From a virus, in the IMG/VR virus record IMGVR_UViG_3300046501_000552, positions 1-64,000 of that record: a stretch of DNA of 64,000 nucleotides; one strand, given 5' to 3'. The notes under the pieces are model-generated. The model had not been told where the DNA came from. It was given only the letters and a program-made list of their open reading frames with translations, and did not search any database. This document shows, piece after piece, positions 5,369 through 47,606 of the stretch (within the stretch, counting starts at the first letter, position 1; every line of letters starts with the position of its first letter). The position numbers and the translations under genes were made by a program.

Positions 5369-6094
5369 TTATGCTCGCAAGAGAGACTCGATGCGCTCCA
5401 CGCGATCCGCCGGATTCACGAGAGCAGACACCAGAGCATCTCCAAAGTACGACCCGGCGAGCTTGTTGGTCGTATTGGTCGCTGCGTACTGCACTGAGCG
5501 CAGCGGAATGAACGCAGGCTTCACGACGCTTAGCTGGGAGAGGTCTTCGATCGTGGTCCGGTAATACTGGTTGCGATCTTTCTCCGAGCGCGAGATCATC
5601 GAAATGATCAGCTCCGTGACTTCCTGGTTGGCCCCGATGTTGGCTCCGGCATGATACAGCGCCGTGTCGAAGATTTTCCCGAGCTCCAGATAGCCCAAGT
5701 ACCAAGGTACCCGACCCTTCGAGATGATCTCGTCGTAGATTTTGTACACCAACACGTCGGTCTTCACCAGATCCGTGCTTGTGACCACGACGCTACCCGC
5801 ATCGAAGCTGAACTCGTAATACTCATCCCCGTCGATTTGTATCTTCAGGGTCGCCGTCGGTTCGATGGGCAACATGGCATTCACCATGGAGACGCCATAG
5901 TACACATCCTCTACGACAATCGCATAGATTCCCACAATGTAGGTTTCAATGCCGATCTGAGCGAGGCCTCGTTCTGCGAAGCGCGCCGGAATATAGATCT
6001 TCACCGGTTTCTTGCAGACGAGGCTCCCATTTGGAAGTTCTTCGAGGTAAGCCTGGACCCGTTTGGGATCGCGAATGAGTTTACTCACGTCCAT
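5369..6094 (-). CDS. hypothetical protein, 241 aa, probable virion or assembly protein
   Basis: No recognised domain. It starts MDVSKLIRDPKRVQAYLEEL at ATG 6094 and has a strand-rich first half with many valines and tyrosines (GIETYIVGIYAIVVEDVYYG), then a helical half ending RVERIESLLRA. There is no signal peptide; the hydrophobic stretch is too interrupted for a clear membrane helix. It sits 20 bases upstream of the prohead protease and 15 bases downstream of a 484-residue gene. This suggests a head-assembly role, but only by neighbourhood. Confidence 0.55.
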   Translation of the reverse strand: MDVSKLIRDPKRVQAYLEELPNGSLVCKKPVKIYIPARFAERGLAQIGIETYIVGIYAIVVEDVYYGVSMVNAMLPIEPTATLKIQIDGDEYYEFSFDAGSVVVTSTDLVKTDVLVYKIYDEIISKGRVPWYLGYLELGKIFDTALYHAGANIGANQEVTELIISMISRSEKDRNQYYRTTIEDLSQLSVVKPAFIPLRSVQYAATNTTNKLAGSYFGDALVSALVNPADRVERIESLLRA

Positions 6095-7855: not shown

Positions 7856-10800
7856 TTAGCTCTTGTAGGCAGCGACTGCTCGTTGGGCAATCACGTCCAG
7901 CAGGGTAGTGGTGGTGCCAATGATCGCAGGGCTATTCACAATACGATCGTAGACACTCTTGTAACCGAATACGCAGTCGATGACTGTGCCCGACTCCGTC
8001 TTCAGTTCGTTCTCCATCACCTTACCGAACACCGTCTTCATCTGGTTGGCAAACACACCCTTGTCACCGACCCCTGCGCTCACATCAGCCGTGATGTAGA
8101 TCTGAATCGCCACTGTATCCAACGCCAGTGGTTCTCCATCGACCCGGAAGCCCTCATCGGTACTTCCCGTGAAGCCCTTTCGTCCAGCGGACTTATGGCG
8201 CTTCGCCATCTCACGATCCGACATGTTCGTCAGTTGCCGCAGCGACTCCGACATGTCCTCTTTGTCCCCGTGATAGAAGACTTCAATACGCTCAACCACA
8301 CCCTTGGTCTTGGAGAGCGGCACCTGAGCAGACAGATTGCGCAAGGTGTCCAGCGACTCCTCATCAAAGAGGTGATTGTTCGCGGTGACCGCGTCCTCGA
8401 TTATGCATAAGATGTCCTCGCTGCCCACGCGCTGGCCGGTTTTCACCAACCGATGCACGGCTTGATCGAAGTTCACCACGATCTTACGCACCTTGGTGGT
8501 CTTCGTGGTCAAGAGACCCGACACCCGTTTGCTAATCGCCGAGGAGTCTTCCAGGGTATCGGTCGACTCCAACAGAACCGTCTTGACAATCGTCCCAGCC
8601 TTCCACACCACCTGATTCGGATTCAACGTATCGCGCTCGAAGAATCCGGTGTTGTGACACAAGAGGTCGCCTGCCTTAAACACTTGACCTTCAACGACGT
8701 CAGCGACTACTTCATGCGCGACGGTAAGACCCGCTGCGTTGCCATAACGACGACCCAGTTCGATCCCTTTGCGCGTACCATCGGCGTACTCGATCACCAT
8801 GCCGGTGTCCGAGACGCTGATCACCTTGCCGTCCTTCTTGGCCGTATAGGCGTAGAGGTCTGAAGTCCGATGCGCGAGCACCTGTTCATAGCCGGTACGC
8901 ACCGAGGCTTGCGTGTAACCCGCGCAGGCAATCCCGTGAGAATGCTGAATACCCACGAAGTTCACCCGCTTCGCATCATCGCGATCCGAGCCCGGTGACA
9001 AGAGCGCCGCAGTTGAGAGCAGGGCCGTCGCACCCGTCACTCCAATCTCGTACGGATTAGAGGTCCCGCGCAGTGAGTTAAACTGCGGGTCCGCCGACAG
9101 GTAGGTGTTGATCGCCACGTCGGAGGAGTCCTTGGTCGACTCGGAGATGGTCCCCATGTCGTTGCGATGGTACTGACGCGTGCGCTTGGTCATCGAGCGC
9201 GACCCCCGTCCACCGGTCCCCGAGAACGTGACGGCCTCGACGTCTTTCAGGTTTTCCACCGGATTGATGTCCGATACCTGGTTCTTGGCCGGGTCGGTCT
9301 GAATCGCCGTCCAGACAGCGTACGGGTTCAGGTCGATCGGATGCTTGTTCTTGCCCGGGCGGCCGTTATGAATCCGAATCGCCCGAATCAGTTCCGCATA
9401 CACCGCCCCTGCCATACGCTCGTAGCCCTTGATCCGCATGTACTTCGGATCGAGCTCGTCGGGGTGGGTATCCGAGAGTAGCATCTCCACCGAGCGCACC
9501 AACAGCCCCTGGAACGTCAGCGGCTCTTTCATGCCCTGCAAGATTTCCCGTGTGATCGGATCGATAAACATCTGGTACATCAAATCGATCTCACGCAGGT
9601 AACGCTCCGAGCGACCATTGCCTTCGAGGATGTTCAGATAGACGCCGCGCCGATCAAACTCGAACACACTGTAGTTACGGATCTGTCGATGGAACTCGTT
9701 AAAGCCGCCGAGGATCATCGCCGCGAAGGTGTTATCGCGCGGGAAGATCAGCGTCTCATCCGAGAACGCAATCGCGTACTCGTTATCTTGCAGGTTCAGA
9801 CGCTGGCCCGCGTTCACACGGCGTGCCGTCACCTTCAGCGCCCGCATGAGCTTTTCCAAGCCCATTTGGTAGCCCAATACCACCGCCAGCGGAATCGTCC
9901 GACCCAGTACCTTGAGCTCCGCAAACTCCACCGGGGCTTTCTTGGCTTCCAGATCCAGCAACTGCTCAAAGCCCGGCAGAGCGTCATCGGTATTCTGAAT
10001 CACACCATCGATCAAACCGACCAGGGCCATCGAGTTATCCGGATACATGACGATATACTCACCGCCTTCCGCCTGCCCGCAGATGATCTTACCTTCGCTT
10101 TCGAGCGCCGCCAAGACGTCCGGTCCGTAGAGCTTCTCACGCTTTGAGTGATCAAAGAGGAAGTTGAGCTTCTTCGAGAAATGGGCCGAATCCACCGTGA
10201 AACCCCGAAAGCCCATCGCCATGGATGAATACAGACGCGGCGCTTCAAAGAGGTTGTCGAACACGTCGCCCGGATGCAGATTCACCACCGTGGTGTTCTC
10301 GTTATCCAGTCCCATCGCCATGATCGCATTACGCATCCACTGCGAACGATCGTTCACGCGTTTTTCGCTCCGTGACACAAACACCTTACCGTAGTAAGAC
10401 GTCAGCGCCACCCGATCCGGTGCAATCTTACGAATCGGCATGTCACCCTTTTGCTTACGGATGCGATAGCGCGTACCGTTGGCCATGTAAGTGCCATCGT
10501 CTTGCAACAGCGGCAGCTTAAAGTGCAAGGTAGAGGCCGTGCCCTGCACCGGCACAATCCGTACGTGGTACATCACGTACGAGCCCATCACATCCTCCAC
10601 TTCTTCACGCTCGTAGGACGTCACGCAGATCCCGGCGTTTTGCAACGCCAGTACCATGCCTGCCACATCCTTTTCCAGCAGCGTCTCGATGTAGCGCTGG
10701 TCGAACTCCAGCAGCGACGATTTTAACATCGTCTTATCCAGCACGGTCGGAATGTCCTTGATGGCGGGCGATTCCACGATCTTGGTTTCGTGTGGCTGGA

Positions 10801-12394
10801 CTTGCGAGAAGTCGTGCAGGTTACCTTCGCCCTTGGGCGCAGGCAGGTTCTTGGGCGACTGTGCCAGTTGCGTGAAACGACGATACTCCGCCGCACTGAC
10901 CATCCCGTCATCCGCCAGGCGATTGAGCAAAGCAATCACGCCGTCTTCCGGTTGCGGCACGTCATTCAGCTCGACCACTTCCGCCGGATGCGGAATCTCA
11001 CCCGCGCTCACCGCGACGGCTTGACGACTGAGCTTATCGAGCGTTTGCAGATCCTTTTCAATCTGCGCGTCTTCAGTCGGATCAAAGACAAAGTCCTCGG
11101 CCTTCTCGGTCGGGGTGAATTCATCGGTCGGGGTGCTCTTGACCGAGTTGGTCTTCACTGCCGTCGGCTTCAGAATTGCTTCGCCCGTAATCGGATCGAC
11201 CTTGGGGAGACTGCCCGTTTGCTTGAAGGTCGGCAAGAGACTCTCGTCTTCCTCGTCGTCCTTGTTTGCATCGAACTGCTCATCGGGATCGTAATGCTGC
11301 GCTTCCGGTACGCCATCGGCGCTCGCGTCTTGCGCATCCGCCGCCTGGATCGACTCTTCGTCTTGGGCGGCGTCTTCAGCTTCCGGACCCACATCCGTTC
11401 GCACTTGGAAGAGCGACATCGACATGCGCAGCAAGCGACGCTGCATCTGCACCGGCGACAGTCCCTTTTGATTCGCCTGCGGATTCGCCGCGAGCTCTTC
11501 CTCGGTCGCCACGCGCCAGCGATTGATGACACCCAGATTCACCACGAACCACCGACCCGATTCCGTGAAGATCAGATTCACGCGATCCAGATGCTCATCA
11601 TTGACGTTGGCAATCAGCGAGCTATGGCGGGCGTCGCCTGCCCACTTCCACAGCTCGAGCAGCATCAGGGCTTCGGGCGTATGGAACACCTTGAGCGTAC
11701 GCTGGTTCATTGCTTCCATCGCTACGCTATCCACATAGTGGGGCGAGGCTTGCACCAGATCCAGATACTCCTGATCGACGGACTCTAGCGCCAGCTTGAT
11801 ACCTTCGGCGGCATGGCTCAGCACGTCGCCTTCGATAAGCGACTCCGAGGCAATGCGCAAATCCGTCAAGCCCGGCAAAATCTTCGGCAGCCGGATTTCG
11901 ATGAACTGATGCCGGGTCGAGTCTTTCGCCAGATCGCCAATGCGCTTCCAGACCGTGGCTGCAATATTGTACCAGCGGTTGTACTCCGCAAACATCGAGC
12001 GCTGATAACGGTAGAGCCCCGCCAGAAAGCCGTAGTTCATCACGAACGGGACATTCACATCGCGCAGCGCAGCGTTCAGGTTGATCTGACGACGAAACCG
12101 GCGATGATGCTGGTGGTACTTGCGAATCTCGGTTTCCACCGGCACTGCGACCCGCCGTGGCATGCCCTTGTCCGAGAGCAACTCGATCTGATGCATGATC
12201 GGGATGGGACGCGCCACATGCCGAAAGAGAAACTCATCCGAACGCGGGCCGATATCCACCGCGCTTTCACTCACGTAGTGAAAGATCGACTCACGCGGCA
12301 GCTCCAGCAAATCGAGCTTGGGCATGGGTGGGTTCGTCAACTGCGAAGCCGTGCGCACACCAAAGCGTCGAAAGAAGTTGTTGTAGAAAATCAT
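7856..12394 (-). CDS. phage multisubunit RNA polymerase, beta-like subunit (N-terminal to double-psi barrel)
   Basis: 1,512 residues. Residues 1-330 are phage-specific. Residues about 340-470 are an acidic, Asp/Glu/Pro/Thr-rich, probably disordered linker. From about 520 the protein follows bacterial RpoB: DGTYMANGTRYRIRKQKG (about 630) resembles the beta 'NGTERVIVSQ' strand; KRVNFVGIQHSHGIACAGYTQASVRTGYE (about 1140) resembles the region ending TGMEYRAA; and GDKGVFANQMK (K1445 and K1453) keeps the two active-centre lysines with the same eight-residue spacing as E. coli K1065/K1073. The protein ends right after this barrel, so the RpoB C-terminal clamp part is missing; a separate gene at 28798-29499 appears to supply it. 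The start codon overlaps the stop of the beta'-like gene (ATGA), so the two are cotranslated. It is not clear whether this is the virion or the non-virion polymerase. Confidence 0.85.
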   Translation of the reverse strand: MIFYNNFFRRFGVRTASQLTNPPMPKLDLLELPRESIFHYVSESAVDIGPRSDEFLFRHVARPIPIMHQIELLSDKGMPRRVAVPVETEIRKYHQHHRRFRRQINLNAALRDVNVPFVMNYGFLAGLYRYQRSMFAEYNRWYNIAATVWKRIGDLAKDSTRHQFIEIRLPKILPGLTDLRIASESLIEGDVLSHAAEGIKLALESVDQEYLDLVQASPHYVDSVAMEAMNQRTLKVFHTPEALMLLELWKWAGDARHSSLIANVNDEHLDRVNLIFTESGRWFVVNLGVINRWRVATEEELAANPQANQKGLSPVQMQRRLLRMSMSLFQVRTDVGPEAEDAAQDEESIQAADAQDASADGVPEAQHYDPDEQFDANKDDEEDESLLPTFKQTGSLPKVDPITGEAILKPTAVKTNSVKSTPTDEFTPTEKAEDFVFDPTEDAQIEKDLQTLDKLSRQAVAVSAGEIPHPAEVVELNDVPQPEDGVIALLNRLADDGMVSAAEYRRFTQLAQSPKNLPAPKGEGNLHDFSQVQPHETKIVESPAIKDIPTVLDKTMLKSSLLEFDQRYIETLLEKDVAGMVLALQNAGICVTSYEREEVEDVMGSYVMYHVRIVPVQGTASTLHFKLPLLQDDGTYMANGTRYRIRKQKGDMPIRKIAPDRVALTSYYGKVFVSRSEKRVNDRSQWMRNAIMAMGLDNENTTVVNLHPGDVFDNLFEAPRLYSSMAMGFRGFTVDSAHFSKKLNFLFDHSKREKLYGPDVLAALESEGKIICGQAEGGEYIVMYPDNSMALVGLIDGVIQNTDDALPGFEQLLDLEAKKAPVEFAELKVLGRTIPLAVVLGYQMGLEKLMRALKVTARRVNAGQRLNLQDNEYAIAFSDETLIFPRDNTFAAMILGGFNEFHRQIRNYSVFEFDRRGVYLNILEGNGRSERYLREIDLMYQMFIDPITREILQGMKEPLTFQGLLVRSVEMLLSDTHPDELDPKYMRIKGYERMAGAVYAELIRAIRIHNGRPGKNKHPIDLNPYAVWTAIQTDPAKNQVSDINPVENLKDVEAVTFSGTGGRGSRSMTKRTRQYHRNDMGTISESTKDSSDVAINTYLSADPQFNSLRGTSNPYEIGVTGATALLSTAALLSPGSDRDDAKRVNFVGIQHSHGIACAGYTQASVRTGYEQVLAHRTSDLYAYTAKKDGKVISVSDTGMVIEYADGTRKGIELGRRYGNAAGLTVAHEVVADVVEGQVFKAGDLLCHNTGFFERDTLNPNQVVWKAGTIVKTVLLESTDTLEDSSAISKRVSGLLTTKTTKVRKIVVNFDQAVHRLVKTGQRVGSEDILCIIEDAVTANNHLFDEESLDTLRNLSAQVPLSKTKGVVERIEVFYHGDKEDMSESLRQLTNMSDREMAKRHKSAGRKGFTGSTDEGFRVDGEPLALDTVAIQIYITADVSAGVGDKGVFANQMKTVFGKVMENELKTESGTVIDCVFGYKSVYDRIVNSPAIIGTTTTLLDVIAQRAVAAYKS

Positions 12395-14019
12395 GAATCG
12401 TAACCTGTCAGATTGTGGAACACCAAGGACACGGTCGAGACTTCGATACTGGACATGAAGGAGCCGTCGGTACCGACGTAGGCGCGCTTCTTACTCAGGT
12501 GTGCCTTGACTTCCGCGATGGATTCGTCCGAGTACGTGACGTTACCCGAAGCGGTATCGCCGTCAAAGTCCGCGCCCAGTTTGCCAAGCTTGGCTGAGTG
12601 CGGCACCAGCGAGTTGATAAACGCACCGCCCGTAATCGGGAACTGATACGCCACCGGCGCATCCAGTCGTAGTTGCCACTGCTCATCGAGCTCCTTGCGA
12701 ACCTCAGCCTTAATCGTCGTCTTCACATAGGCGAGCGACGGATAGATCGAGCCCACCCCGGTCACCGGGTAACGCGTCACAAAGAGCGGCAAGCCATTGA
12801 TGGCCTGGAAGGTCGACAGATAGAGCAGCTCACAAAAGGTGAGCGGCGTCACATCTTTGCGACTGCGCTCAATGGGCACATCACCAATGTCCTGGAAGAT
12901 CTTGTAGGTCCCGTCCGGGCCCTTGTAAATGAGACCGAGGTAATAGCCTTCAATCTCCAGCGGCTTATGGCGCAGGTCCTCGTCTCCAAACGACGTGATC
13001 ACCTTCTCGATGCCTTCGTTGGTCATCCAGCGATCGTAGCTTTGCGTCTTGAGTGTGACTTCGACTGGGCGCAGCGTCTTCTTGTCAATCAGCTTTACCG
13101 GCCGACCCACTTCAAAGAACACCTTGGAGAGAAAGCCGTTGCGAATGTTGTACATCGCAATCGGACGCGCCGCTTTCAACATCTGGTACAGGCCGATCAC
13201 GGTGTTATTAAAGCCCACCGCGTCGGGTGCCCCCAGATAGGGACTGGACGTATCCATCGCCGTAATCACGTTTCGCGTGCCGTCCTGAATCCGCCGACTG
13301 GCCCACTTGCCCATCAGCAGCTTCTTCTTGCCCTGCACCATGTTTTCCAGCATGTCGTACAACTGGTTAAAGGTGAGCTGCAAGTTGTAGCGTGCGGTGT
13401 TGATCACTTCCGGTGCAGTCTTGACCGACGCTTCGGAGATGGTGTTGGAGATCGCCAGCAGCTTGCGGTAAAAGGTGTTGATTTCATCCATCTGCACCCG
13501 ACCGCCATCGAGCTCCACGTCACGCATCCCCGCAGGCATCACAATCACTTTGCTGGTGAGCGCCACGCTCTGGAACTTCTTCAAGAGCGACACATTCATT
13601 TCCCGTGTCACACTCTTGGTGTCACCGAATTCGATGAGCTTCCAGTATTCCAGAAAGAATGCGTAGCCGGTACGGCCGGTAATTGAATTGCTGCGCTCAA
13701 AGTCTTTGGTTTCCGGATTCCACACCGCGTACTCAGTGCCTGCCATAATCGCAGCATAGAGGCGCTTGAGCTGGGCGAGTGCCCGATAGATCACCGGATG
13801 GAACACCGGGGCCTTGATGTCAACAAACGAAAAGCGCTGACTCCGGCGCTCATCCCCGACTTTGCCGAAGATGCTCACCGAGAAGAGTCCGCCTTCGTCG
13901 AAGTTGTGGGTCGCGCCATCGAAGATGTCTTGCTTCGTAACAGGTTTCACACCCACGAGCTTTTTCTCCGTGAGTTCAAGGATACTCACGTTAAATGGGA
14001 CTTCGCTTTTCTGGGGCAT
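12391..14019 (-). CDS. phage multisubunit RNA polymerase, beta' N-terminal-like subunit
   Basis: 542 residues matching the N-terminal half of RpoC. EGGLFSVSIFGKVGDE (about 42-57) matches the 'RDGLFCARIFGPVKD' start of beta'. GKWASRRIQDGTRNVIT (about 237-253) matches the 'GKRVDYSGRSVI' segment. PVTGVGSIYPSLAYVK (about 424-439) matches the 'RAPTLHRLG' region. LGADFDGDTASGN carries D484, D486 and D488, the three aspartates that hold the catalytic Mg. The N-terminal zinc finger of beta' is absent. The protein ends 54 residues after DFDGD, so the bridge helix and trigger loop must be on another polypeptide, not seen in this window. It is the first gene of the operon, divergent from the tape-measure gene. 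Confidence 0.88.
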   Translation of the reverse strand: MPQKSEVPFNVSILELTEKKLVGVKPVTKQDIFDGATHNFDEGGLFSVSIFGKVGDERRSQRFSFVDIKAPVFHPVIYRALAQLKRLYAAIMAGTEYAVWNPETKDFERSNSITGRTGYAFFLEYWKLIEFGDTKSVTREMNVSLLKKFQSVALTSKVIVMPAGMRDVELDGGRVQMDEINTFYRKLLAISNTISEASVKTAPEVINTARYNLQLTFNQLYDMLENMVQGKKKLLMGKWASRRIQDGTRNVITAMDTSSPYLGAPDAVGFNNTVIGLYQMLKAARPIAMYNIRNGFLSKVFFEVGRPVKLIDKKTLRPVEVTLKTQSYDRWMTNEGIEKVITSFGDEDLRHKPLEIEGYYLGLIYKGPDGTYKIFQDIGDVPIERSRKDVTPLTFCELLYLSTFQAINGLPLFVTRYPVTGVGSIYPSLAYVKTTIKAEVRKELDEQWQLRLDAPVAYQFPITGGAFINSLVPHSAKLGKLGADFDGDTASGNVTYSDESIAEVKAHLSKKRAYVGTDGSFMSSIEVSTVSLVFHNLTGYDS

Positions 14020-14096
14020 ATATCTTATCCTGCGGGTTTTAAGCCCAAACCTATGAGGGGCTCACGTGCAGCCCGACATCATTGGAGCCTGTGTTT

Positions 14097-17000
14097 ATGG
14101 CCAAGCAACAAAAATTCACGTTGAACGATTTCCAGTTCGACAAGAACCTTGACGTGCCTGATTTCGATTTCGATCTCAAGCCGCCGAAGGATAACCGCAA
14201 GCCGGTTACCAAAGTCGCTGCGGGCCTGAAAGAAGGCATCAGCCTGTCGGCGAAGAACTCCGAGTTTATCAAGGGCGTCATTGAGAAAGCACTGCCTCGG
14301 GGATACGGCTCCGCGTATGATCTCGCCGAGAAATCGTTCGGATCGATAAAAAGTCTATACGATGATACGACCAAGGAAATCCGGCCGTTCATGAACGACT
14401 TGAAGCGCACGACGGCACGCTTGCTCCCGAAGGTGGAGCAGGCGATGCCGGACAAGCTCAAGAAGCAAGTGAAGGACTGGACTGAGACGGCGGACGCCAA
14501 ACCGGGCAGCTCGAACTATGATCCTCGCGAAGCCGAGATCAGTGCGATGCTTGCAGGCTTCGCCCAGGTTCAGTCCGAACTCCAATACAAACAAACCACT
14601 GAATCAGACACCAAGGATCGACTCCGTGAAGGCCTCGAACAAGTCCGCCATCGGGACAAGCTTAAGCAGATGGACTCGCTGCGCGTTGGCATTGCTCAGC
14701 TTGTGGATTACCAGTCCAACGTTACCGCTAACTACCATCGCAAGTCGCTCGAGCTCCAGTACCGCCATTACTTCGTTGCTGTAGACGCACTGGAAGAAAC
14801 CAAGCGCAGCAACGCAGAGATGCGCCTGCTCTTGCAAAGCGTGGTGCACAATACGGCGCTACCCGAGCAAGCCAAGCTCAAGGCTTCGGACACCTTCAAG
14901 GACATGGCCAAGCAACAGGCCATGAAGCTGATTGGCGGCACCATTCTTGGGCGCGGCCAGGAGTTCTTGAACAATCTCACCGGGAACCTGAAGAAGAACG
15001 CCTTGCGCACGGTGAAGGGCGGGCTGGGTCATGGTCGCTCAGGGATGGACATGTTAAACGGCGTCCTGGATGCTGATGACATGGCGCGTGCAATGGGCAT
15101 GCAAACCGATCCGTATCATGCTGGCGGGATGGTGGCCGGTGCGTTTGGCACAGGCATCATCGGGCAGTGGCTCGCTAAGAAGATGGCGCCGCACTTGCAA
15201 AAGATGCCAGGTGTAAAGAAGTTCGGTAACAAATTGCAGTACGGCGTTGAGAACGTGCCGCAGATGCTCGGCGAATGGGCGCGCTCGAACAAGCACGAGA
15301 ATGGTGGCATCACCGACGGTCTGGTACGCTTCTTGAAGATGAACGTCAGGAGCTCGCAGAAGATGCAAACCGGTCTGCAAAAGGATACCGTTGAAGGCAT
15401 GGGGGAGCCGTCCTACTTTAGCCGTCAGTCGGCAAAGTCGTTGAACGAGATCATTCCTGGCTACCTCGCCCGGATTCTGCGTGAGTTGCAAGTCACCCGC
15501 ACCGGGGACCCGAACGTCGAGATGACGCATTATGACTACACCAAGAACAAGTTCGACACGCAAAGCAATGTGCGTACGAACGCGTTTAAGTCCCTGGTCA
15601 AAGACAACGAGCGCAAGTGGACCACCGAGTCGATCGATAGCCTGATCGATGAAGTTACCACTAAGACGGGCAAAACCCTCACCCCGGAACAGAAGAAGAT
15701 TCTCGGTAGTCAGCTCTTGCGTAACAACGTCAAGGGTCGCCTAGGTGGGGAAGAGGTGCTCGGTAACCGGCGCCGTTATGATGGTGATGCCGCACCGCAC
15801 GCTGATGCGTTTGCCGATCTGTTTAAGACGTACTTCCGCAACGATCACGATAACGAGCGCAAGCACTCGTTTGCCAATGCGTACAATGCATTTGGTCAGT
15901 ATGCGTCCGCCTCGCGTGAAAAGGTCCAGCATTTTTCCAATCTGGGCATGAACGACTTCTTGAATGAGGCGGGCCTGCTTAATGATGACGAAGATGGCGT
16001 GAAGCTCGAGCAGTTCTTTGACTACTATTACGGCAAGGACTTTAACCCGGCCGCGGGGAGTACTGCGAATGGTTTTCGTCCCGCTCAGGCTGGGGCAGCC
16101 GCGGCTGCTGTGGGTCCGCGTCGTCGTCGGCGGCGCGGCAATGCAGGCAGTATTGGTCGCGCAAATCGCGGTGGGGTGCATCAAGCCCTGTCTCAATTGG
16201 CAGCGGGTCCGGTCCCGTCCTTTGCAACGCCTGGTCTGATTACGCCGAGCTTTGTACCGACGACCGCTAATGCGGGTGCCTATAGCCCGCAACCGAACGC
16301 CGCCGTCGGCACGCCCAAGTATCGTCAGCAGTTGGCGAACTACTTGCAAAAGCTGGGAGTACCGGTTCAGCAAGTCAATGCGCTGGTGGAGCAAACTGTT
16401 TCTGCCATGGGAGCAACGGCGCACGGTGCAGTACAAGGTGCGGCAGGTTTGCAAGCCGCGGGTACGCAACGCGCTGGCGGGTTCTTTAGCAATGCACGAG
16501 ATCACGCGCGTGAGTTTGCTAACCGGACGGCTTCGGGTGCACGCGCGCTGCATGAGAATGCCAAGAACCACATCGAGACGTTGCTCGAGAAGCTCTCTGA
16601 AGGTGTAGGGTCCATTAGCGATGGGATCAAGGCCATCCAGGAACGTTTCGCCGAAGCGCTGCCAGTGATGGTGGTCGGTAACGCCGCAGATGGTTCGATC
16701 CCGACGGGTGCCGCAGGTACGGGTCGCAAGGTACGCTGGTGGAACAAGTCCATCAAGGACGGTGTCAAGAGCCTCGCCTCGGGCGCATGGGGCGGCATGA
16801 AGAGTGCAGGCAAGCTGGGTAACTGGTTGGTCGGCAGCAGCTTCGGTGGTCTCTTCGGCACGGCCAAGGCGGTGGGCGGTATGGCAACCGGTCTCGCAGG
16901 CAAGGTGATTGACAAGGCCCGCGGCTTTAAGGATGTGTATTCAGAAGAGACAGGTCCGCGTAAGGTCCTGCTCTATGCGGCACGTCTGAAGGCTGGTGAA

Positions 17001-20000
17001 TACTTCGATGTCAAGACGGGCAAACCCGTCAAGACCTGGCGAGATATTCAAGGCGCAGTGGCCGATGCCTCAGGCATTGTCATGACCGAGGAGCAAGCGT
17101 CGACCGCCTATGTGCGAGAAGGGCTCGCTAAGAAGGCCCTAAGGGGGCTGGGTGCCGGTGTCAAGGTCGCCAGCAAGCTCGGTAGCTTCCTCGGTGGCAA
17201 CCTCTTGGGTGGCCCTCTGGCGGGCTACAAAGCGATCGCTAAACTCGGTGAGCTGGCCATCAAAGGCGCGCTGGGTTATGCCAATGGTCCGCAAGATGTG
17301 TACGTATTCGACAAGGATCATCCGAAGCGACTGCGTAAGGCTCTGGACGCGAAGACCATGCGCGCAGGTGGCTATCACTCGGCAGTCAATGACAAAGCCA
17401 TCAAGAGTCCGAAAGACATTGATGGCGAAGTCTACAACTACAAGGGTGTTACGGTACTCGACGAAGAGGAATTCAAGCGCGGTCTCTATGACAAGAACGG
17501 CAACCCGCTCAAACACGGGGTGGCACGACTTCTGTCAGGCGCCACGAAGATTCTCGGCGGTGGGTTCGGCGCGCTTAAGTGGTTGGCTGGGGGTGTGAAC
17601 CAAGGTATCGGTCATGCGTTCGGCCTGGGCAAGGGCATGTTCAGTGGACTGGGTTCCCTCTTTGGCAAGACGGGGATTTTCTTTGGTGGTGGCAAGAAGT
17701 TGATGTCCGCTGTGGAAGAGATTCGTGACTTGCTCAAGGACCGGCTACCTGAACGGCACAGAATCCGCAAGGGTTCGATCGAGGACCAGCACAAGTCGCG
17801 TAAGGAACAGCTCGAAGAGGAATGGAAGAAGCACCTGGGTCAGAACGGCCAAGGTGATGACAGCCAGAAGAAGGGCGGTATTCTCAGCCTGCTCAGTGGT
17901 CTGTTCAAGCGCAAGAAAAAGAAGGACGATGACGAAGACGACTCCAAGGGTGGTCTGGTTGATGGGGTCGAGTCCGCAGTCGAACAAACGATTGCTGATA
18001 AGATCCTCGGCAAGATTCCTGGAGGCAAGCTCCTGCGCAAGATTCCGGGCCTAGGACGACTCTTCGGTAAGGGCGGCGCGGGTGCAGCAGCCGGTGCCGC
18101 TGAAAACATCGTGGGCGGCGCGGCTAAGCAGGGTCTCGGTACCCGCATCATGGGCGGTCTGAAGTGGGGCAAAGGCCTGGGTGCCGGTATGGCGCTCACG
18201 GGTGCCTCGGCGCTGGCCAATGCCACGGGCCACGATACCATTGGAAAGGGGTTGGGTTATGCAGGTGATGCTGCGACTGGGTGGTCTCTTGCTTCTGGGG
18301 CTGCTGGTCTACTCGGTGTTGAAGGTGGAGCATTGGGCCTTGCAGGCGCTGCAGGCGGGACACTCCTTACTGGACTTGGGGCGGTGCTTGCTTCGCCTGT
18401 GCTCTTGCCTGCTCTCGGTATTGCGGCTGCTGGGGCTGCAGTGTACAGCGGCTATCGGCTCCTGACCCGTAACAAGCTCGATGCGCTCTCAAAGATCCGT
18501 TACGCTCAGTATGGTTGGAAGCCCGAGGACGACGGCAATGTGCACAAGGTGTTTGCGTTGGAAAACGCACTGATGCCGGGTGTCACGTACGTCGGTGGTC
18601 AGGCGCAGATTGATCCCAAGAAGGTGGACATTAAGAGCGCAGTCGAAGGCCTGGGTGTCGATCTGAAGGATAAGGATCAGGTGCAGAACTTTGCCACCTG
18701 GTACGTGCGTCGCTTTAAGCCGGTCTTTATCACCCACCTGACCATCTTGAATAACATCAAGAAGGGTACGGCGTTGTCGGATGCCAACGACAAGCTGTCC
18801 TCAGCGGAGAAGAAGACTTTCCTGCAAGGGATTCGCATGCCTGCCGACCCGTATAACTCGATGGTCTCGCCGATTCCGGGCGAGAAGCAATTGAGTGCAG
18901 GGGCTGACGACGTGAAGGCCGTGATGGACGAGGTGCAAGCCGCCAACGATAAGGAGGTCGAGAAAGATAAGGACAAGAAGACCAACGACAAGGCGGACAA
19001 AGCCAAGGACGAGGCTAAGCACGACGCAGCGACGAAGGGCGATAACAAGCCTGAGCCGAGCTGGATGGATAATCTTAAGTCAGGGATCAGTAACGCCTGG
19101 GATAAGACCAAACAGTTTGCAGGCAATGCGTGGGACGCGACGAAGAGTGCTGCCAGCTCAGTAGGTTCGGCGGCGTCGAGTCTCATCTCGGGTGCAGGCG
19201 ATGCCCTGAAGTCCGGCTACCAAGCGGCGAAGGGAGCAGCGGGTAAGATTGGTGCCACCCTCACGGCTTCGGCCTCGGCTATTAAGGGTGCGTTGATTGC
19301 GGCGATGAAAACCGCAGGCATGAGTGACCCGACCGAGCAAGCGATGTTCATGGCACAGATGGACCACGAGAGTGGCGGCTTTAAGTCCCTCTCGGAAAAT
19401 CTGAACTATCGACCCTCGGTGCTCGCGAGTCTCTTTAAGTCGCACTTTAATGGCGAGGGGGATGCCGCTAATGTGGCTGCGGCCGGTCCGCAAGCGATTG
19501 CGAATCGGATCTACGGTGGTCGCATGGGGAACACGGGGCCTGATGATGGCTGGAACTATCGGGGTCGCGGGGTCGTCCAGTTGACGGGTAAAGCCAACTA
19601 CGCCAAGTACGGCAAGATGACTGGTCTGGATCTGGTGAACAATCCGGATCTCGCCTCTGACCCGGCCAATGCCGCTAAGATTGCGCTGGCGTACTGGAAG
19701 GATCGAGTGTCTTCAGCGGCTGCGAAAGCAGGCGATGTGCTCTCGGTCACCAAGGCGATCAACGGTGGCACGAACGGCCTGAGCGATCGGCAGGCGAAGT
19801 TCCAGGCTTACCTCGGTCAGGCGCAGCAAGGCCAGTTGGGTGGCAAACCGGACCCGAATGCCAAGGCAGGGGAGGCGGGTACCCAAGTCGCCTCGACCGG
19901 TGGTGCTCCGGCCACGGGTAGTGCAGGTGGTGCGGGCGCAGCGGGTGCGACAGGCGCAGCAGCAGGCGGGATCATCAAGGTCGCGGATCAGACTCCTGGT

Positions 20001-20411
20001 CCGGCTCCGGCACTGAAGTCAACCCCGGCAACTGCTCCGGATGCAGCGCCGGTGGATAATGGTGCGAGCGCAGCAGTTAGCGCCCTGCCTGACTCCATCA
20101 ATAGCCAAACCGCGGCAGCCATGGGGGGCTTCCAGAATCGCAGTAAGGATCTGGCAGCCCAAAGCCAAGCCCAGTCGCAAGATCTGGCCAAAACACTCGG
20201 CCCGGTCTCTGATGTGCTCAAGCAATCGCTCGATGTCCAAAAGCAGATGCTGACGGCGTTGCAACAACTCGTGGGTTTTGCCGGTAAGCAAGGGAGCAAT
20301 TCTCAAGCGAACGCGAAGACTCCGACGGGGACACTCTCGCCTGATGCTATGCAAAGGAAGACACCGCAGCCGATGACGTCTGCTCCGGTTTCCATGTCCA
20401 AAGTGGCTTAA
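14097..20411 (+). CDS. tape-measure-like virion protein with GH19 muralytic domain
   Basis: 2,104 residues, the largest gene here. The first ~600 residues are helical and charged; residues about 680-760 and 1840-1990 are Gly/Ala/Pro-rich linkers. Residues about 1355-1460 are strongly hydrophobic and Gly/Ala-rich (GALGLAGAAGGTLLTGLGAV), as in tape-measure proteins. Residues about 1735-1905 are a GH19 lysozyme/chitinase-type domain: MDHESGGFKSLSENLNY holds the catalytic glutamates and GWNYRGRGVVQLTGKANYAKYG the substrate cleft. It probably sets tail length or is carried in the tail and cuts peptidoglycan during DNA entry. The ATG at 14097 has GGAG nine bases upstream; a TTG at 14082 is less likely. 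A strong terminator follows. Confidence 0.76.
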   Translation: MAKQQKFTLNDFQFDKNLDVPDFDFDLKPPKDNRKPVTKVAAGLKEGISLSAKNSEFIKGVIEKALPRGYGSAYDLAEKSFGSIKSLYDDTTKEIRPFMNDLKRTTARLLPKVEQAMPDKLKKQVKDWTETADAKPGSSNYDPREAEISAMLAGFAQVQSELQYKQTTESDTKDRLREGLEQVRHRDKLKQMDSLRVGIAQLVDYQSNVTANYHRKSLELQYRHYFVAVDALEETKRSNAEMRLLLQSVVHNTALPEQAKLKASDTFKDMAKQQAMKLIGGTILGRGQEFLNNLTGNLKKNALRTVKGGLGHGRSGMDMLNGVLDADDMARAMGMQTDPYHAGGMVAGAFGTGIIGQWLAKKMAPHLQKMPGVKKFGNKLQYGVENVPQMLGEWARSNKHENGGITDGLVRFLKMNVRSSQKMQTGLQKDTVEGMGEPSYFSRQSAKSLNEIIPGYLARILRELQVTRTGDPNVEMTHYDYTKNKFDTQSNVRTNAFKSLVKDNERKWTTESIDSLIDEVTTKTGKTLTPEQKKILGSQLLRNNVKGRLGGEEVLGNRRRYDGDAAPHADAFADLFKTYFRNDHDNERKHSFANAYNAFGQYASASREKVQHFSNLGMNDFLNEAGLLNDDEDGVKLEQFFDYYYGKDFNPAAGSTANGFRPAQAGAAAAAVGPRRRRRRGNAGSIGRANRGGVHQALSQLAAGPVPSFATPGLITPSFVPTTANAGAYSPQPNAAVGTPKYRQQLANYLQKLGVPVQQVNALVEQTVSAMGATAHGAVQGAAGLQAAGTQRAGGFFSNARDHAREFANRTASGARALHENAKNHIETLLEKLSEGVGSISDGIKAIQERFAEALPVMVVGNAADGSIPTGAAGTGRKVRWWNKSIKDGVKSLASGAWGGMKSAGKLGNWLVGSSFGGLFGTAKAVGGMATGLAGKVIDKARGFKDVYSEETGPRKVLLYAARLKAGEYFDVKTGKPVKTWRDIQGAVADASGIVMTEEQASTAYVREGLAKKALRGLGAGVKVASKLGSFLGGNLLGGPLAGYKAIAKLGELAIKGALGYANGPQDVYVFDKDHPKRLRKALDAKTMRAGGYHSAVNDKAIKSPKDIDGEVYNYKGVTVLDEEEFKRGLYDKNGNPLKHGVARLLSGATKILGGGFGALKWLAGGVNQGIGHAFGLGKGMFSGLGSLFGKTGIFFGGGKKLMSAVEEIRDLLKDRLPERHRIRKGSIEDQHKSRKEQLEEEWKKHLGQNGQGDDSQKKGGILSLLSGLFKRKKKKDDDEDDSKGGLVDGVESAVEQTIADKILGKIPGGKLLRKIPGLGRLFGKGGAGAAAGAAENIVGGAAKQGLGTRIMGGLKWGKGLGAGMALTGASALANATGHDTIGKGLGYAGDAATGWSLASGAAGLLGVEGGALGLAGAAGGTLLTGLGAVLASPVLLPALGIAAAGAAVYSGYRLLTRNKLDALSKIRYAQYGWKPEDDGNVHKVFALENALMPGVTYVGGQAQIDPKKVDIKSAVEGLGVDLKDKDQVQNFATWYVRRFKPVFITHLTILNNIKKGTALSDANDKLSSAEKKTFLQGIRMPADPYNSMVSPIPGEKQLSAGADDVKAVMDEVQAANDKEVEKDKDKKTNDKADKAKDEAKHDAATKGDNKPEPSWMDNLKSGISNAWDKTKQFAGNAWDATKSAASSVGSAASSLISGAGDALKSGYQAAKGAAGKIGATLTASASAIKGALIAAMKTAGMSDPTEQAMFMAQMDHESGGFKSLSENLNYRPSVLASLFKSHFNGEGDAANVAAAGPQAIANRIYGGRMGNTGPDDGWNYRGRGVVQLTGKANYAKYGKMTGLDLVNNPDLASDPANAAKIALAYWKDRVSSAAAKAGDVLSVTKAINGGTNGLSDRQAKFQAYLGQAQQGQLGGKPDPNAKAGEAGTQVASTGGAPATGSAGGAGAAGATGAAAGGIIKVADQTPGPAPALKSTPATAPDAAPVDNGASAAVSALPDSINSQTAAAMGGFQNRSKDLAAQSQAQSQDLAKTLGPVSDVLKQSLDVQKQMLTALQQLVGFAGKQGSNSQANAKTPTGTLSPDAMQRKTPQPMTSAPVSMSKVA

Positions 20412-24234: not shown

Positions 24235-24948
24235 TTAGTGCCCGTTCCGTTCCGGATTGGGATTGAACACGTCGCTGTAGTCGGGTTTATCCGGACGACG
24301 CCCTTCCTTCATCAACGTCCGAATGCTCTCCATCCCACGGGTGAACCAGGGAGCAATCTGCGGACGAATCGGAAAACCGGGGTCGTTGGCGCTGGCTTCC
24401 TTACCACGAAAAATGTAGTAGTGATCGAACGGCAACTCAGAAGCCACAAAGAGCGCTTTGAGGTGGTCATTCTGTTCGATCTTGAAGTAGTTCGCCTCCA
24501 TAATGATCTGGTGAAAATTGGCGATCCAGCGCACACCCAAGTTGCGCGTCTCGCGCTTGGCCGTCATGCCGGAGACATAACGCCAGCGGTCATCGCGCGT
24601 TGTATCTCGCACATAGCCCCAGAATCCCTCGACTGAACGAAAGCGCCCAAACTGCGGGTGCTCGAACTTTGACGCGAACTGATGCACCAGCATGCGGCCC
24701 AATTCAGTCTGCGCAAACGCATCGATGTTGATATGCGTGTTACCGTCTTCCAGAACGAGCGGATGCACCGGCACCTGCACTTCCTCCGTTACTGCTTGCA
24801 TGACATTCTCCGCGGGTTTGGCTCCCGTCCTTGTATTGTCTTGTGCGTTTGCCCCAGCGCCCGACTTCTCCTGGGACGCTTCTCGGCGGCGTTCGTCACT
24901 AATGTTCGGGAAACGCACTCTTCCCTTGCGTTCACGATCATTGAACAT
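24235..24948 (-). CDS. NADAR-domain-like protein, 237 aa
   Basis: Residues 1-65 are charged and probably disordered. Residues about 72-215 resemble phage NADAR-family proteins. The run is FASKFEHPQFGRFRSVEGFW (the family's 'SNF...SVEGYW' box), then GMTAKRE ('G..AK' box), then IIMEANYFKIEQNDHLKALF, then ELPFDHYYIF ('LPF.HYY' box), and finally WFTRGMESIRTLM. NADAR proteins remove ADP-ribose from nucleic-acid bases or related NAD-derived compounds, and some neutralise DarT-type DNA ADP-ribosylation. In a phage this could be an anti-defence enzyme, which is inference. It belongs to a four-gene minus-strand run behind the TATATTAC element at 26165. Recognition is by pattern only. Confidence 0.55.
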   Translation of the reverse strand: MFNDRERKGRVRFPNISDERRREASQEKSGAGANAQDNTRTGAKPAENVMQAVTEEVQVPVHPLVLEDGNTHINIDAFAQTELGRMLVHQFASKFEHPQFGRFRSVEGFWGYVRDTTRDDRWRYVSGMTAKRETRNLGVRWIANFHQIIMEANYFKIEQNDHLKALFVASELPFDHYYIFRGKEASANDPGFPIRPQIAPWFTRGMESIRTLMKEGRRPDKPDYSDVFNPNPERNGH

Positions 24949-28797: not shown

Positions 28798-29499
28798 TTA
28801 ATTAAGACCAGTATTGGCGAGGTGCATGCAGGTCAGAATGATGCTGAGGGTCTGCGTGGACTTCACCTGGGTGCCCAGCTTCTCGATCGACTTGAGCGAC
28901 ACCCCGCCAGTTTTGCTGATAGCGGAATTGAGCGCATCAAAGCCTTTCTCATCCCCGCCTCGATACTTGAGCATCTCGGTGAGGTTGGCGTCCAGATTAA
29001 GTGCGGCCATAATCTGCGTCTCTGGGTAGGAGATCTTCGATCCCTTGGACTTCCCGGTCGGCTGGCCTGTGAAATCGTCCACGGACTTAGAGTCTTCAGG
29101 AATCGAGATCTTCTTGACCAGCAGCTGCGCTTGACGGCGCAGGGGGAGATCAACCACCAGGTACGGAATCGGTGACAGATACGGTGGAATATCGTTGCCA
29201 TTGTCGATCCAGATCCTTTCAAAGAAGTTATGGCCCAGTTCATCAGCCAGCTTCAGGTTCCGTTCGATGTCTAGGCGCACCAGCTTCTTATCGCCGCCTT
29301 GCGGGTGTTCTGCGAGGTTAGGCGCAATCACCGCGAGTCGAATCTCCTGCCGCTCAAGCTTTTCCATCCATACGGCAAACGCCGCGTCGTCCATGCTGGC
29401 GAAGAGATTGCGGTAAATGTCAGTGTTACCTGACTCCGGGATCAACTTCTCGATCCATTCGTAGATAACCGCTTCAGCAGCTGCTCGGTTTCCTGCCAT
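28798..29499 (-). CDS. phage RNA polymerase, beta C-terminal-like subunit, 233 aa
   Basis: The order of motifs matches the RpoB C-terminus. It runs ASMDDAAFAVWMEKL ('FSDEEVMRLAENL'), FFERIWIDNGNDI ('IRLYDGRTGE'), PIPYLVVDLPLRRQAQLLVKK ('[20 protein letters not shown]'), then DFTGQPTGKSKGSKISYPE ('[20 protein letters not shown]'). It continues with LDANLTEMLKYRGGD ('AYTLQEMLTVKSDD') and ends in SLKSIEKLG ('LLKEIRSLG'). This is the part missing from the 1,512-residue beta-like protein. The ATG at 29499 has AGGAAA eight bases upstream and overlaps the preceding gene by 58 bases. That the two proteins form one enzyme is inference; phiKZ-type phages have two polymerases, and this piece might belong to the other one. 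Confidence 0.72.
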   Translation of the reverse strand: MAGNRAAAEAVIYEWIEKLIPESGNTDIYRNLFASMDDAAFAVWMEKLERQEIRLAVIAPNLAEHPQGGDKKLVRLDIERNLKLADELGHNFFERIWIDNGNDIPPYLSPIPYLVVDLPLRRQAQLLVKKISIPEDSKSVDDFTGQPTGKSKGSKISYPETQIMAALNLDANLTEMLKYRGGDEKGFDALNSAISKTGGVSLKSIEKLGTQVKSTQTLSIILTCMHLANTGLN

Positions 29500-30032
29500 G
29501 ATGTTTTCCTAATCCGTTCAAGCCAGTCCTCGTCCGGTTCCACAAGGTTGATCGTCATCGCGAGCTGGTACTTCTTGCCCTGATCGATCATGTGTTTCGT
29601 GCCTCGTGATTCACCGTCCCAGAACGTGATGAGATGGGTTGCCACGCGTGCCATTTGAGTGTTGCGCACATAACCTGCGCTACGCCCGAGCCCGTCCCAG
29701 TCGGCAGGAAACTCTGCCCATGGGAAGCCGTTCTCTTTGCACCAGTGGATAATCATATCATCAGCGCCCTTGCTGGCCTTGCCGGATACAAAAACGATCC
29801 TGGGTAAGTCAACCAAATCCTCTTTCATGAGCCGCAACTCCAACCAGTGGACAAAGTCCTCGTAACGGTTATAGTTGCGACCCCCGGCGACCACAATGAT
29901 CGCGTCCCAGATCTCACGCGTTAACAGCTCATGCGGCACCACAAACTCTCGGCCCTTTACGATGGGCCACTCGTCGAGCAGATTTAAGCGCTCGCGTAGT
30001 GCGATTGCGGAATGCTGAATTTCATCATGCAT
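29442..30032 (-). CDS. DUF2493/YspA SLOG-like protein, 196 aa
   Basis: Residues about 43-160 match the DUF2493 (YspA) branch of the SLOG Rossmann-like fold. The visible pieces are IIVVAGGRNYNRYEDFVHWL (glycine-rich first loop), then IVFVSGKASKGADDMIIHWC (GxASKGAD box), then RNTQMARVATHLITFWDGES and SRGTKHMIDQGKK (GT-rich nucleotide-binding loop). SLOG proteins bind or process NAD- or nucleotide-derived ligands, and DUF2493 members are common in phages with unknown role. The overlaps with the genes on both sides (49 and 58 bases) show tight packing with the polymerase beta piece. Confidence 0.8.
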   Translation of the reverse strand: MHDEIQHSAIALRERLNLLDEWPIVKGREFVVPHELLTREIWDAIIVVAGGRNYNRYEDFVHWLELRLMKEDLVDLPRIVFVSGKASKGADDMIIHWCKENGFPWAEFPADWDGLGRSAGYVRNTQMARVATHLITFWDGESRGTKHMIDQGKKYQLAMTINLVEPDEDWLERIRKTSWQETEQLLKRLSTNGSRS

Positions 30033-45776: not shown

Positions 45777-47606
45777 ATGGCATTGAATTTGAATGACCTC
45801 GCTTACCCGTTTGATCCCACGGGCTCGCTTGCGTCGAACAAGATCACCAACGAGCAGCAAATCCTGACGGCGGTGAATTGGACCGATTACCAGATCATCG
45901 TGCCGCGCTGGGCGCCGTTCTTTGACGCAAGTGTGAGCCTGACCATCACGGACGCCCAAGGCAACGTCACGCCGCTACAACGCGGTAAGGACTGGTATCC
46001 GTGTTTTGAATTTATCTCCGCCTCGCGCGCCTGCGCCGCCCCCATCTGGGGTGGCATCCAGTTTGTCAATCCGCTCCTGGCTGGGGTGGTCAAGGTCAGC
46101 TATCAGACGCTCGGCGGCATGTGGACGCTGGATGAGGCAGGCGTCTCGGCCCTGCTTGCGGATCGTACAGCTAATCCGCGAATCACAGCTTGGGAGCAAG
46201 TCGTCGACCAACCGGTGATGTTCCCGGTGATCGATCACGAGTGGGATCTCGTGGACATGGTCGGGGCGACAGACCTGGTCAACGCACTCGGCGACATCGA
46301 AACCGCATTGCGTCAAACGGGTTCCACGGGCCTGGCGGCCCACTTGGCGGACTTCACCAACCCGCACCGGGTAACGGCCACGCAAGTCGGCCTGGGTAAT
46401 GTACAGAACTACGGCATCGCGCAAGCGGCTGACCTGGCAGCTGGGACGAGCAACAGCGTCTACATTACGCCGGGTGGCGTGACGACGATGATGAACGCGG
46501 GTCCGAATGCAGCGATTGCTGCGCACGCGGCACGTACTGACAACCCGCATGCGACCACCGCGCATGAAGTAGGAGCGTACACGCAAGCGGAAGTCGATCA
46601 GCTGCTATCGGGCTATACGCCTTCCGGCGGATCGGCAGCAGATTCGCTGCTCTTTGACGGCATGGATGCAACGACCTATCGGGACTGGGCACTCTCCACC
46701 GGCGTGGCTTCGAACTCGTCGAAGTTTGGCGGTCAAACCCCGGCTGACTTCACGGCCGCTGTGCTCGGCGGGACTGCTGCGAACGCCAATCAGCTCGCAG
46801 GCCATACCTACGCCCAAGTGCTCTCGGATGCGTTGGCGGGTAAAGCGGCCGACACGTTTGAATTTAACGGCATGGACCCTGCCACGTTTGCGGCGTGGGT
46901 GCTCAACAATGGTGCCGCTTCGAACGCGTTGAAAGTTAACGGCATGACCCCGGCGGACTTTGCGACCTGGGTGCTGAATAACAACGGTCCGGCGGCAGAC
47001 TCCAGCATGCTCGGCGGTTACACGCTTGCGCAGGTGTTGGCCCAAGCCGGTTCGGGCGCAGGCACGGCCTTTGCTCCGCAGGTGCTCTTTAATCCGACCA
47101 GCAGCGAAACCGGTACGGATTACTGGAGTGAGCTCGGTCAGATCCCGCTGCCGTCGGCGACCGACCCGGAACTCTCGGGCTACAACGATATTCGTTGGTT
47201 GCTCTCGGGCGGGGATTCGAATGGTCAGCTGGTGTCGGGTGCTTACCTGATCTGCTTTAACATCCGGGGACCCTCGGGCAGTCAAGTGACAATGAGCGTC
47301 ACCAACATGGTGGCGAGCGATCCGGGTGCCCAGTTTGGCTACACGATCGAGAACGTCACGGTGGGCGGCACGGCTGTCCCGACCATTCGCGTCTGGATGA
47401 AGACGGGTCCGAACCTGAACGCCTACACGGTCACGCAGCTCTCCGATGATTCGTCCAAGCTCGTGACGAATAGCCGGGTGGCGGTGGCGCCTGCCAGCAT
47501 CGTCTACGCGACGACGGATCGGTTTGCCCTGGAGTCAGAAGTCGTCAACATGGTGGACACACTGACCACATTGTTCAACCAGCTGGCCGCTTCGATTAGC
47601 AGCTGA
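45777..47606 (+). CDS. tail fibre protein with NPH repeats, 609 aa
   Basis: The N-terminal ~140 residues resemble those of the next fibre gene (LAYPFDPTGSLASNKITNEQ; VSYQTLGG), pointing to a common virion attachment module. Residues about 190-220 (HLADFTNPHRVTATQVGLGN) and 245-270 (AARTDNPHATTAHEVGAYTQ) are NPH repeats typical of tail fibres. Residues about 285-430 hold repeats of a 40-50 residue unit (FNGMDPATFAAWVLNNG; VNGMTPADFATWVLNNN). The C-terminus is beta-rich and then helical (MVDTLTTLFNQLAASISS). The ATG at 45777 follows GGGAGAAAAG. It likely makes a trimeric fibre or its shaft. Confidence 0.78.
   Translation: MALNLNDLAYPFDPTGSLASNKITNEQQILTAVNWTDYQIIVPRWAPFFDASVSLTITDAQGNVTPLQRGKDWYPCFEFISASRACAAPIWGGIQFVNPLLAGVVKVSYQTLGGMWTLDEAGVSALLADRTANPRITAWEQVVDQPVMFPVIDHEWDLVDMVGATDLVNALGDIETALRQTGSTGLAAHLADFTNPHRVTATQVGLGNVQNYGIAQAADLAAGTSNSVYITPGGVTTMMNAGPNAAIAAHAARTDNPHATTAHEVGAYTQAEVDQLLSGYTPSGGSAADSLLFDGMDATTYRDWALSTGVASNSSKFGGQTPADFTAAVLGGTAANANQLAGHTYAQVLSDALAGKAADTFEFNGMDPATFAAWVLNNGAASNALKVNGMTPADFATWVLNNNGPAADSSMLGGYTLAQVLAQAGSGAGTAFAPQVLFNPTSSETGTDYWSELGQIPLPSATDPELSGYNDIRWLLSGGDSNGQLVSGAYLICFNIRGPSGSQVTMSVTNMVASDPGAQFGYTIENVTVGGTAVPTIRVWMKTGPNLNAYTVTQLSDDSSKLVTNSRVAVAPASIVYATTDRFALESEVVNMVDTLTTLFNQLAASISS

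Follow-up and report, generated by a model that had tools for sequence, protein, structure and literature searches.

The virion RNA polymerase (RNAP) of Pseudomonas phage phiKZ is composed of gp178 (beta N), gp149 (beta C), gp180 (beta' N), gp80 (beta' middle), and gp176 (beta' C). In the available portions of the published work, Sokolova et al. 2020 described N-beta and C-beta as two distinct subunits of the virion enzyme, virion and non-virion beta as split at different sites, and the polymerases of this group as having no alpha or omega subunit (PMC7598289). Similarly limited to the available text, tagged Gp180 of phiKZ co-recovered Gp178, Gp80, and Gp149 (PMC10612078), De Martin Garrido et al. 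2021 reported the structure of a non-virion polymerase (PMC8287921), and a 2026 review repeated the five-polypeptide core (PMC13282480). For Salmonella phage SPN3US, the accessible part of Thomas et al. 2016 gives gp241 (betaN, 1,401 aa) and gp218 (betaC, 222 aa), the former with an N-terminal domain of ca. 400 residues without RpoB homology for which a head-targeting role was proposed; particles made without gp241 contained neither gp241 nor gp218 at a detectable level, and gp244, the homologue of phiKZ gp176, is given a beta' C role (PMC5105663). In the sections available of Iyer et al. 2021, the extension past the beta catalytic domain is a protein of its own in virion polymerases and the beta-barrel proteins carry a unique N-terminal region; their review counts three beta polypeptides (PMC7824862), whereas two were found here, a single chain comprising both the barrel and the N-terminal part.

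The window analysed here is a stretch of 64,000 nt of IMGVR_UViG_3300046501_000552, a virus record of 71,392 bases that is itself a fragment. The features discussed below are collected in Table 1. The three polymerase open reading frames named in the preliminary description were found at the positions it had given, all on the minus strand, a detail that it did not include. The beta N and beta' N genes overlap by 4 bases (12391-12394), and the two beta genes are separated by 16,403 bases, in agreement with the 16-17 kb reported earlier. In three IMG/VR records of 310-315 kb, the long protein recurs at 100%, 97%, and 96% identity and the short protein at 99-100% identity, and on these identities the records are ascribed to this phage or to one very close to it. 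We are nearly certain that the locus encodes a phiKZ-type RNAP, which would be packaged in the head, and that its beta subunit comes as two separate chains, a long piece that runs through the double-psi barrel and a 233-residue C-terminal module.

Table 1 Features of the virion RNAP genes in the window
Feature	Position	Strand	Remarks
beta' C-terminal piece of virion RNAP	5369..6094	minus	241 aa; phiKZ gp176 orthologue
beta N-terminal piece of virion RNAP (long piece)	7856..12394	minus	1512 aa; phiKZ gp178 orthologue
Active-centre lysines K1445, K1453 (GDKGVFANQMK)	8036..8062	minus	aligned with E. coli K1065/K1073
Acidic linker, residues 336-500 of long piece (approximate boundary)	10895..11389	minus	variable length
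Family N-terminal domain, residues 1-335 of long piece (approximate boundary)	11390..12394	minus	conserved, folded; no RpoB counterpart found
beta' N-terminal piece of virion RNAP	12391..14019	minus	542 aa; phiKZ gp180 orthologue
beta C-terminal piece of virion RNAP (short piece)	28798..29499	minus	233 aa; phiKZ gp149 orthologue
Short-piece residues 154-233, aligned with E. coli beta 1268-1330	28801..29040	minus	VIA-align 7xug_I: Z 3.9, rmsd 4.1, 61 aligned
Short-piece residues 1-118, aligned with E. coli beta 1134-1230	29146..29499	minus	VIA-align 7ubn_C: Z 4.0, rmsd 3.9, 94 aligned

The long protein matched phrog_3148 (phage RNA polymerase beta) of PHROGs over residues 1-1511 with an E-value of 0, and the short protein matched phrog_3233, likewise a phage RNAP beta family, with an E-value of 2.8e-76. 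At these E-values the family matches are not due to chance, and phiKZ gp178 and gp149 fall in phrog_3148 and phrog_3233, respectively. In pairwise alignments, gp178 showed 33% identity with the long protein from residue 7 almost to the C-terminus of the latter, and gp149 showed 40% identity with the short protein over residues 16-229. Among 50,697 public phage records, 294 matched the long protein (258 over at least 80%) and 273 matched the short protein (272 over at least 80%). Pfam recognised neither piece above its cut-offs, no polymerase was retrieved when the PDB was searched by sequence with each protein alone, and these searches together with the literature listing yielded no solved structure of this polymerase.

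The position of the cut was examined in the register of E. coli RpoB. A profile of 17 long pieces aligned residues 1122-1376 with RpoB 657-937 (P 5e-6; 0 of 100 column shuffles), and in the profile alignment residues 1430-1485 corresponded to RpoB 1050-1107, placing K1445 on K1065 and K1453 on K1073 (P 0.008). The two lysines, which had been described as having the bacterial spacing, are indeed 8 residues apart as in E. coli, and both were invariant in all 16 sequences of the beta N alignment. Besides the window protein, that alignment draws on 15 of 25 loci, after exclusion of one that was identical, seven with interruptions, and two that were partial. The last 27 residues of the long piece would reach approximately RpoB 1134 if ungapped. 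The alignment to RpoB thus supports the earlier reading of the long protein as a beta piece that stops just after the double-psi barrel.

The motifs TGQPTGKSKGSKISYPE, EMLKYRGGD, and a late LG, which had been put forward as marks of the missing RpoB C-terminus, were found in that order in the 233-residue protein. In an alignment of 40 beta C sequences (the window protein and 39 of 49 loci), G145, Q146, G149, S151, S157, E160, E175, and R180-D183 were invariant; the closing LG varied within this family, and RGGD turned out to be a motif of the phage family that was not seen at the matching place of E. coli RpoB. The assignment itself was borne out by profiles and by structure. A 53-sequence profile aligned residues 11-196 of the short piece with E. 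coli beta 1140-1310 (P 9.1e-6; 0 of 100 shuffles). The same alignment obtained with a 41-sequence profile had a P of 0.044, its score being reached by 6 of 100 shuffles, and another shallower profile gave a P of 0.03, within noise; it was the addition of 12 more distant phage sequences (of 13 fetched, from the 273 records) that raised the match clearly above noise. Since the long piece ends at ca. 1134 and the short piece starts at 1134-1140 by profile and structure, the two pieces abut near E. coli 1134, and this edge-to-edge placement offers a boundary for co-expression.

AF2 modelled the short piece with moderate confidence (pLDDT 64, with residues 117-159 below 50). When this model was compared with the PDB using Foldseek, no match reached an E-value of 0.001 or lower, ranks 1-31 were all RNA polymerase chains, headed by the AR9 non-virion polymerase, and 34 RNA polymerase rows stood among the best 50 of 60 matches. 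We take the chains matched to be beta subunits. VIA-align, which re-aligns Foldseek's own candidates, gave RNA polymerase entries in 50 of 50 rows (the best 50 of 92 with Z of at least 2). Z values in the listed rows were low (3.4-5.3), and for this predicted model the weight rests on the agreement of the residue ranges (Table 1). As a control, the model of the N-terminal domain of the long piece, which was better folded, was compared with the PDB in the same way, and no RNA polymerase appeared among the best 50 of 204 matches.

An alternative explanation would have the short gene encode an unrelated virion protein, with the beta C module missing or encoded elsewhere. It would account for the published annotations of some matches as virion structural protein, for the failure of sequence-only searches to reach a solved RpoB (a 40-sequence profile retrieved from the PDB no polymerase and only three designed proteins, E 0.41-0.84), and for the lack of signal in the comparison with the non-virion beta that the same phages encode, where 60 of 100 shuffles reached the score. 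We consider it quite improbable, because the deep profile match falls in the expected register, the top structural neighbours are RNA polymerases matched in the right region, no such neighbours stood among the best 50 matches of the control model, and there was no second candidate of the beta C family in 23 large records. No fold outranked RNA polymerase in Foldseek or VIA-align. Each of the three 310-315 kb records held one match of the C-terminal family, the other beta C-terminus in them being part of the non-virion polymerase.

The reading of the short gene as the beta C-terminal module was further strengthened by the constancy of the split. The stop codon lay 59-66 residues past the second lysine in all 26 scorable genes, comprising relatives, Burkholderia phage FLC9, phiKZ, the window (L002), and the near-identical copies L007, L010, and L011; one further listed gene, L027, was unscorable as an intron breaks the motif (27 listed), and L030, whose contig ends inside the gene, was left out earlier. 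In the 23 large records (22 IMG/VR records >200 kb and phiKZ), the beta C family gave exactly one match per record, always as a separate frame of 224-268 codons, and the beta N gene was present in all 23 (uninterrupted in 17, in pieces in 6). No fused beta N and beta C gene was seen among these records. The distance between the two genes was 14.9-21.9 kb in the 22 IMG/VR records (in G010 only if circular) and 26.9 kb in phiKZ.

The preliminary description had judged a split at this point unusual, and a novel architecture peculiar to the phage of the window might be suggested by the non-virion beta of the same phages, which is split elsewhere, before the catalytic domain, so that the two splits of each phage differ. 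This explanation is very improbable in view of the same split in 26 of 26 genes, the separate beta C in 23 of 23 records, and the 273 public phage records that match beta C, and the split is also described in the available text of three papers (PMC5105663, PMC7598289, PMC7824862). The cut after the double-psi barrel is the normal, already described arrangement of the phiKZ-type phage group, and the split is a family rule. The idea that assembly error or pseudogene formation explains the two genes, the long one as a truncated copy and the short one as a displaced fragment, has a negligible chance of being correct even though the window comes from a 71-kb record fragment, as the three 310-315 kb records contain both genes at 96-100% protein identity and 16.4-17.1 kb apart, isolate FLC9 has both genes, and the spacing in the IMG/VR records is that given above. 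The identities of the genes, the point at which the two pieces abut, and the conservation of the split were established directly in this analysis, and a phiKZ-type beta in two polypeptides is retained in what follows.

An N-terminus of 330 residues and an acidic linker had likewise been regarded as unusual features of the long piece. Both are present, and both are common to phiKZ gp178 and the relatives examined. Residues 1-340 were alignable across 24 sequences (the window protein and 23 of 25 loci), and residues 330-500 contained 25% D+E and 7% K+R, the length of the linker stretch being 103-174 residues across 16 sequences. The AF2 model of residues 1-340 was confident, with a pLDDT of 83 and a pTM of 0.81, with residues 188-203 and 217-228 below 50. 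Foldseek found nothing in the PDB at an E-value of 0.001 or lower for this model (best 0.1), a result that does not prove a new fold, and a second structure look returned SRP-type GTPases at Z of 4.8 or less, a level common for the tool. Against viral models, eight matches had E-values of 0.001 or lower. Two of the eight have a name, one being a beta subunit of RNA polymerase from Photobacterium phage PDCC-1 and the other a Myoviridae protein listed as uncharacterised. The less significant matches were a Myoviridae protein named RNA polymerase subunit (E 0.002) and a protein of Bacillus phage PBS1 (E 0.007). These viral-library matches show that the domain belongs to the family and is no peculiarity of the phage of the window. 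We tentatively raise the possibility, doubtful as it is, that this domain of ca. 290-335 residues has a fold confined to jumbo-phage polymerases and serves as the address by which the whole polymerase is loaded into the head. For the head-targeting signal that has been proposed in SPN3US gp241, the domain offers a well-delimited candidate open to testing.

The beta' pieces were also recognised. The beta' N piece matched phrog_2986 (E 2.1e-201), showed 37% identity with phiKZ gp180 in a pairwise alignment, and contained an intact catalytic GADFDGD (DxDGD); its Pfam match was only below the cut-off. The beta' C piece showed 44% identity with phiKZ gp176 and matched phrog_2926 (E 6.1e-88), a family named only 'virion structural protein'. 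The orthologue of the beta' middle piece (gp80) was present in all three close 310-315 kb records and absent from the 71-kb record, itself a fragment. The close records also encode a separate non-virion RNAP, of which the two beta families were detected. Across the 23 large records, each had a match to the non-virion beta N and to the non-virion beta C, the latter as one frame in 20 and as two pieces in phiKZ, G009, and G020. The non-virion beta C-terminal chain runs through the virion cut, its residues 17-658 aligning with RpoB 665-1291 (P 4e-20), and the non-virion beta N profile gave no alignment to RpoB. A homologue of the phiKZ shell protein gp54, the criterion for the nucleus-forming Chimalliviridae, was encoded in all three close records (26% identity, E 5.6e-34 to 1.9e-33), and by this marker their phage would belong to that group.

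In several relatives the long gene is interrupted. In the numbering of the window protein, the interruptions lie after ca. 650 (L019, L028, and L030), after ca. 1140 (L021, L022, L024, L025, L027, L028, and L030), and after ca. 1444, directly before the active-centre K1445 (L027). Rfam group I introns were found in seven of the eight interrupted loci examined, L030 being the exception. The point at ca. 1140, by a correspondence read from the alignment of the long protein with gp178, is the one studied in PhiPA3 gp210, equivalent to phiKZ D1072 and E. coli D675 in the available part of that report (PMC11620839). An origin of the splits at present-day introns was rejected, the intron points at ca. 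650, 1140, and 1444 coinciding neither with the virion split after 1512 nor with the start of the non-virion C-terminal chain, which maps to ca. 1112. The latter lies ca. 28 residues before the 1140 intron point, a proximity that is probably due to chance. The intron map, with introns away from the split, is thus weak evidence against a simple origin of the split from those introns; ancestral introns elsewhere could still have given rise to the splits. In the phiKZ locus, a group I intron (L005:6397-6718) lies between genes 178 and 180, and annotated gp180 stops at LGAD, where the beta' piece of the window continues uninterrupted with FDGD.

Several other genes of the window and one of another phage were noted. 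The products of 24235-24948 and 29442-30032 match the first and second halves of phrog_11222, respectively, the latter product being a SLOG-type (YspA) domain, and the two may be another split pair with the beta C gene between them. At 14082-20411, in the position of phiKZ gp181 adjoining the polymerase genes, a 2,109-residue protein has tail fibre and endolysin family matches. Two adjacent genes at 45777-47606 and 47697-49190 encode tail-fibre-like proteins, both with an N-terminal match to phrog_2163 and differing in their other families. The C-terminal end of a 677-residue protein of Staphylococcus phage UFV_DC4 (L231:160-2193) weakly resembles beta C (24%, E 0.1) and recalls the HD-fused pieces described for Bacillus phages; Pfam gave no family for this protein at an E-value of 0.01.

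The long polypeptide consists of the phage-specific N-terminal domain, the acidic linker, and beta to just past the double-psi barrel with both lysines, and the 233-residue polypeptide supplies the beta C-terminal module from E. coli beta ca. 1134 onward. The further picture of the enzyme follows published work on phiKZ and SPN3US, from which its assembly, its packaging and injection, the lack of alpha and omega, and a role of the N-terminus in head targeting are inferred. Cutting beta after the catalytic barrel would separate a catalytic half from a C-terminal module, the two joining in trans. The two beta pieces and the split beta' pieces would then assemble into an enzyme without alpha or omega, which would be packaged in the head, injected, and used to transcribe early genes, as in phiKZ.

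Among the known systems, the virion RNAP of the Bacillus jumbo phages AR9 and PBS1 resembles the locus of the window in having, as given in the available text of PMC7598289, the beta C-terminal part in its own subunit, and differs from it in the fusion of beta C to an HD domain. In the window, beta C is a protein of 233 aa in which no HD domain was found, with no Pfam family at an E-value of 10 or lower and, beyond phrog_3233, with only a weak PHROGs match (E 0.42), which falls in the C-terminal portion of a family of hydrolases. phiKZ gp149 matches the C-terminal part of phrog_23439, a 423-aa family named hydrolase, with an E-value of 8.9e-8, which would fit an HD-beta C fusion. The phiKZ non-virion RNAP (gp123 / gp71-73) shares a split beta and, in the accessible part of PMC8287921, the lysines K386/K394 in gp71-73; unlike the virion enzyme, it is cut ahead of the catalytic domain, at a point extrapolated to lie near E. 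coli 650, so that the barrel and C-terminus are on one chain. SPN3US gp241 and gp218, both virion proteins, show the same split and a phage-specific N-terminus in the available text of PMC5105663, but they are distant, the beta C being 29% identical. The nearest named relative is FLC9, with 80% identity in beta N, 88% in beta C, and a similar layout by eye; the listed genes of its matching stretch, the polymerase pieces included, are all annotated as hypothetical proteins. In phiKZ, the beta C gene lies 26.9 kb downstream of beta N, whereas that of the window lies 16.4 kb upstream, and the group I intron between phiKZ genes 178 and 180 contrasts with the window, where none was found at the Rfam gathering threshold. 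In other respects the window follows phiKZ, with orthologues of gp178, gp149, gp180, and gp176, the same split point, the long N-terminus, and a separate beta C.
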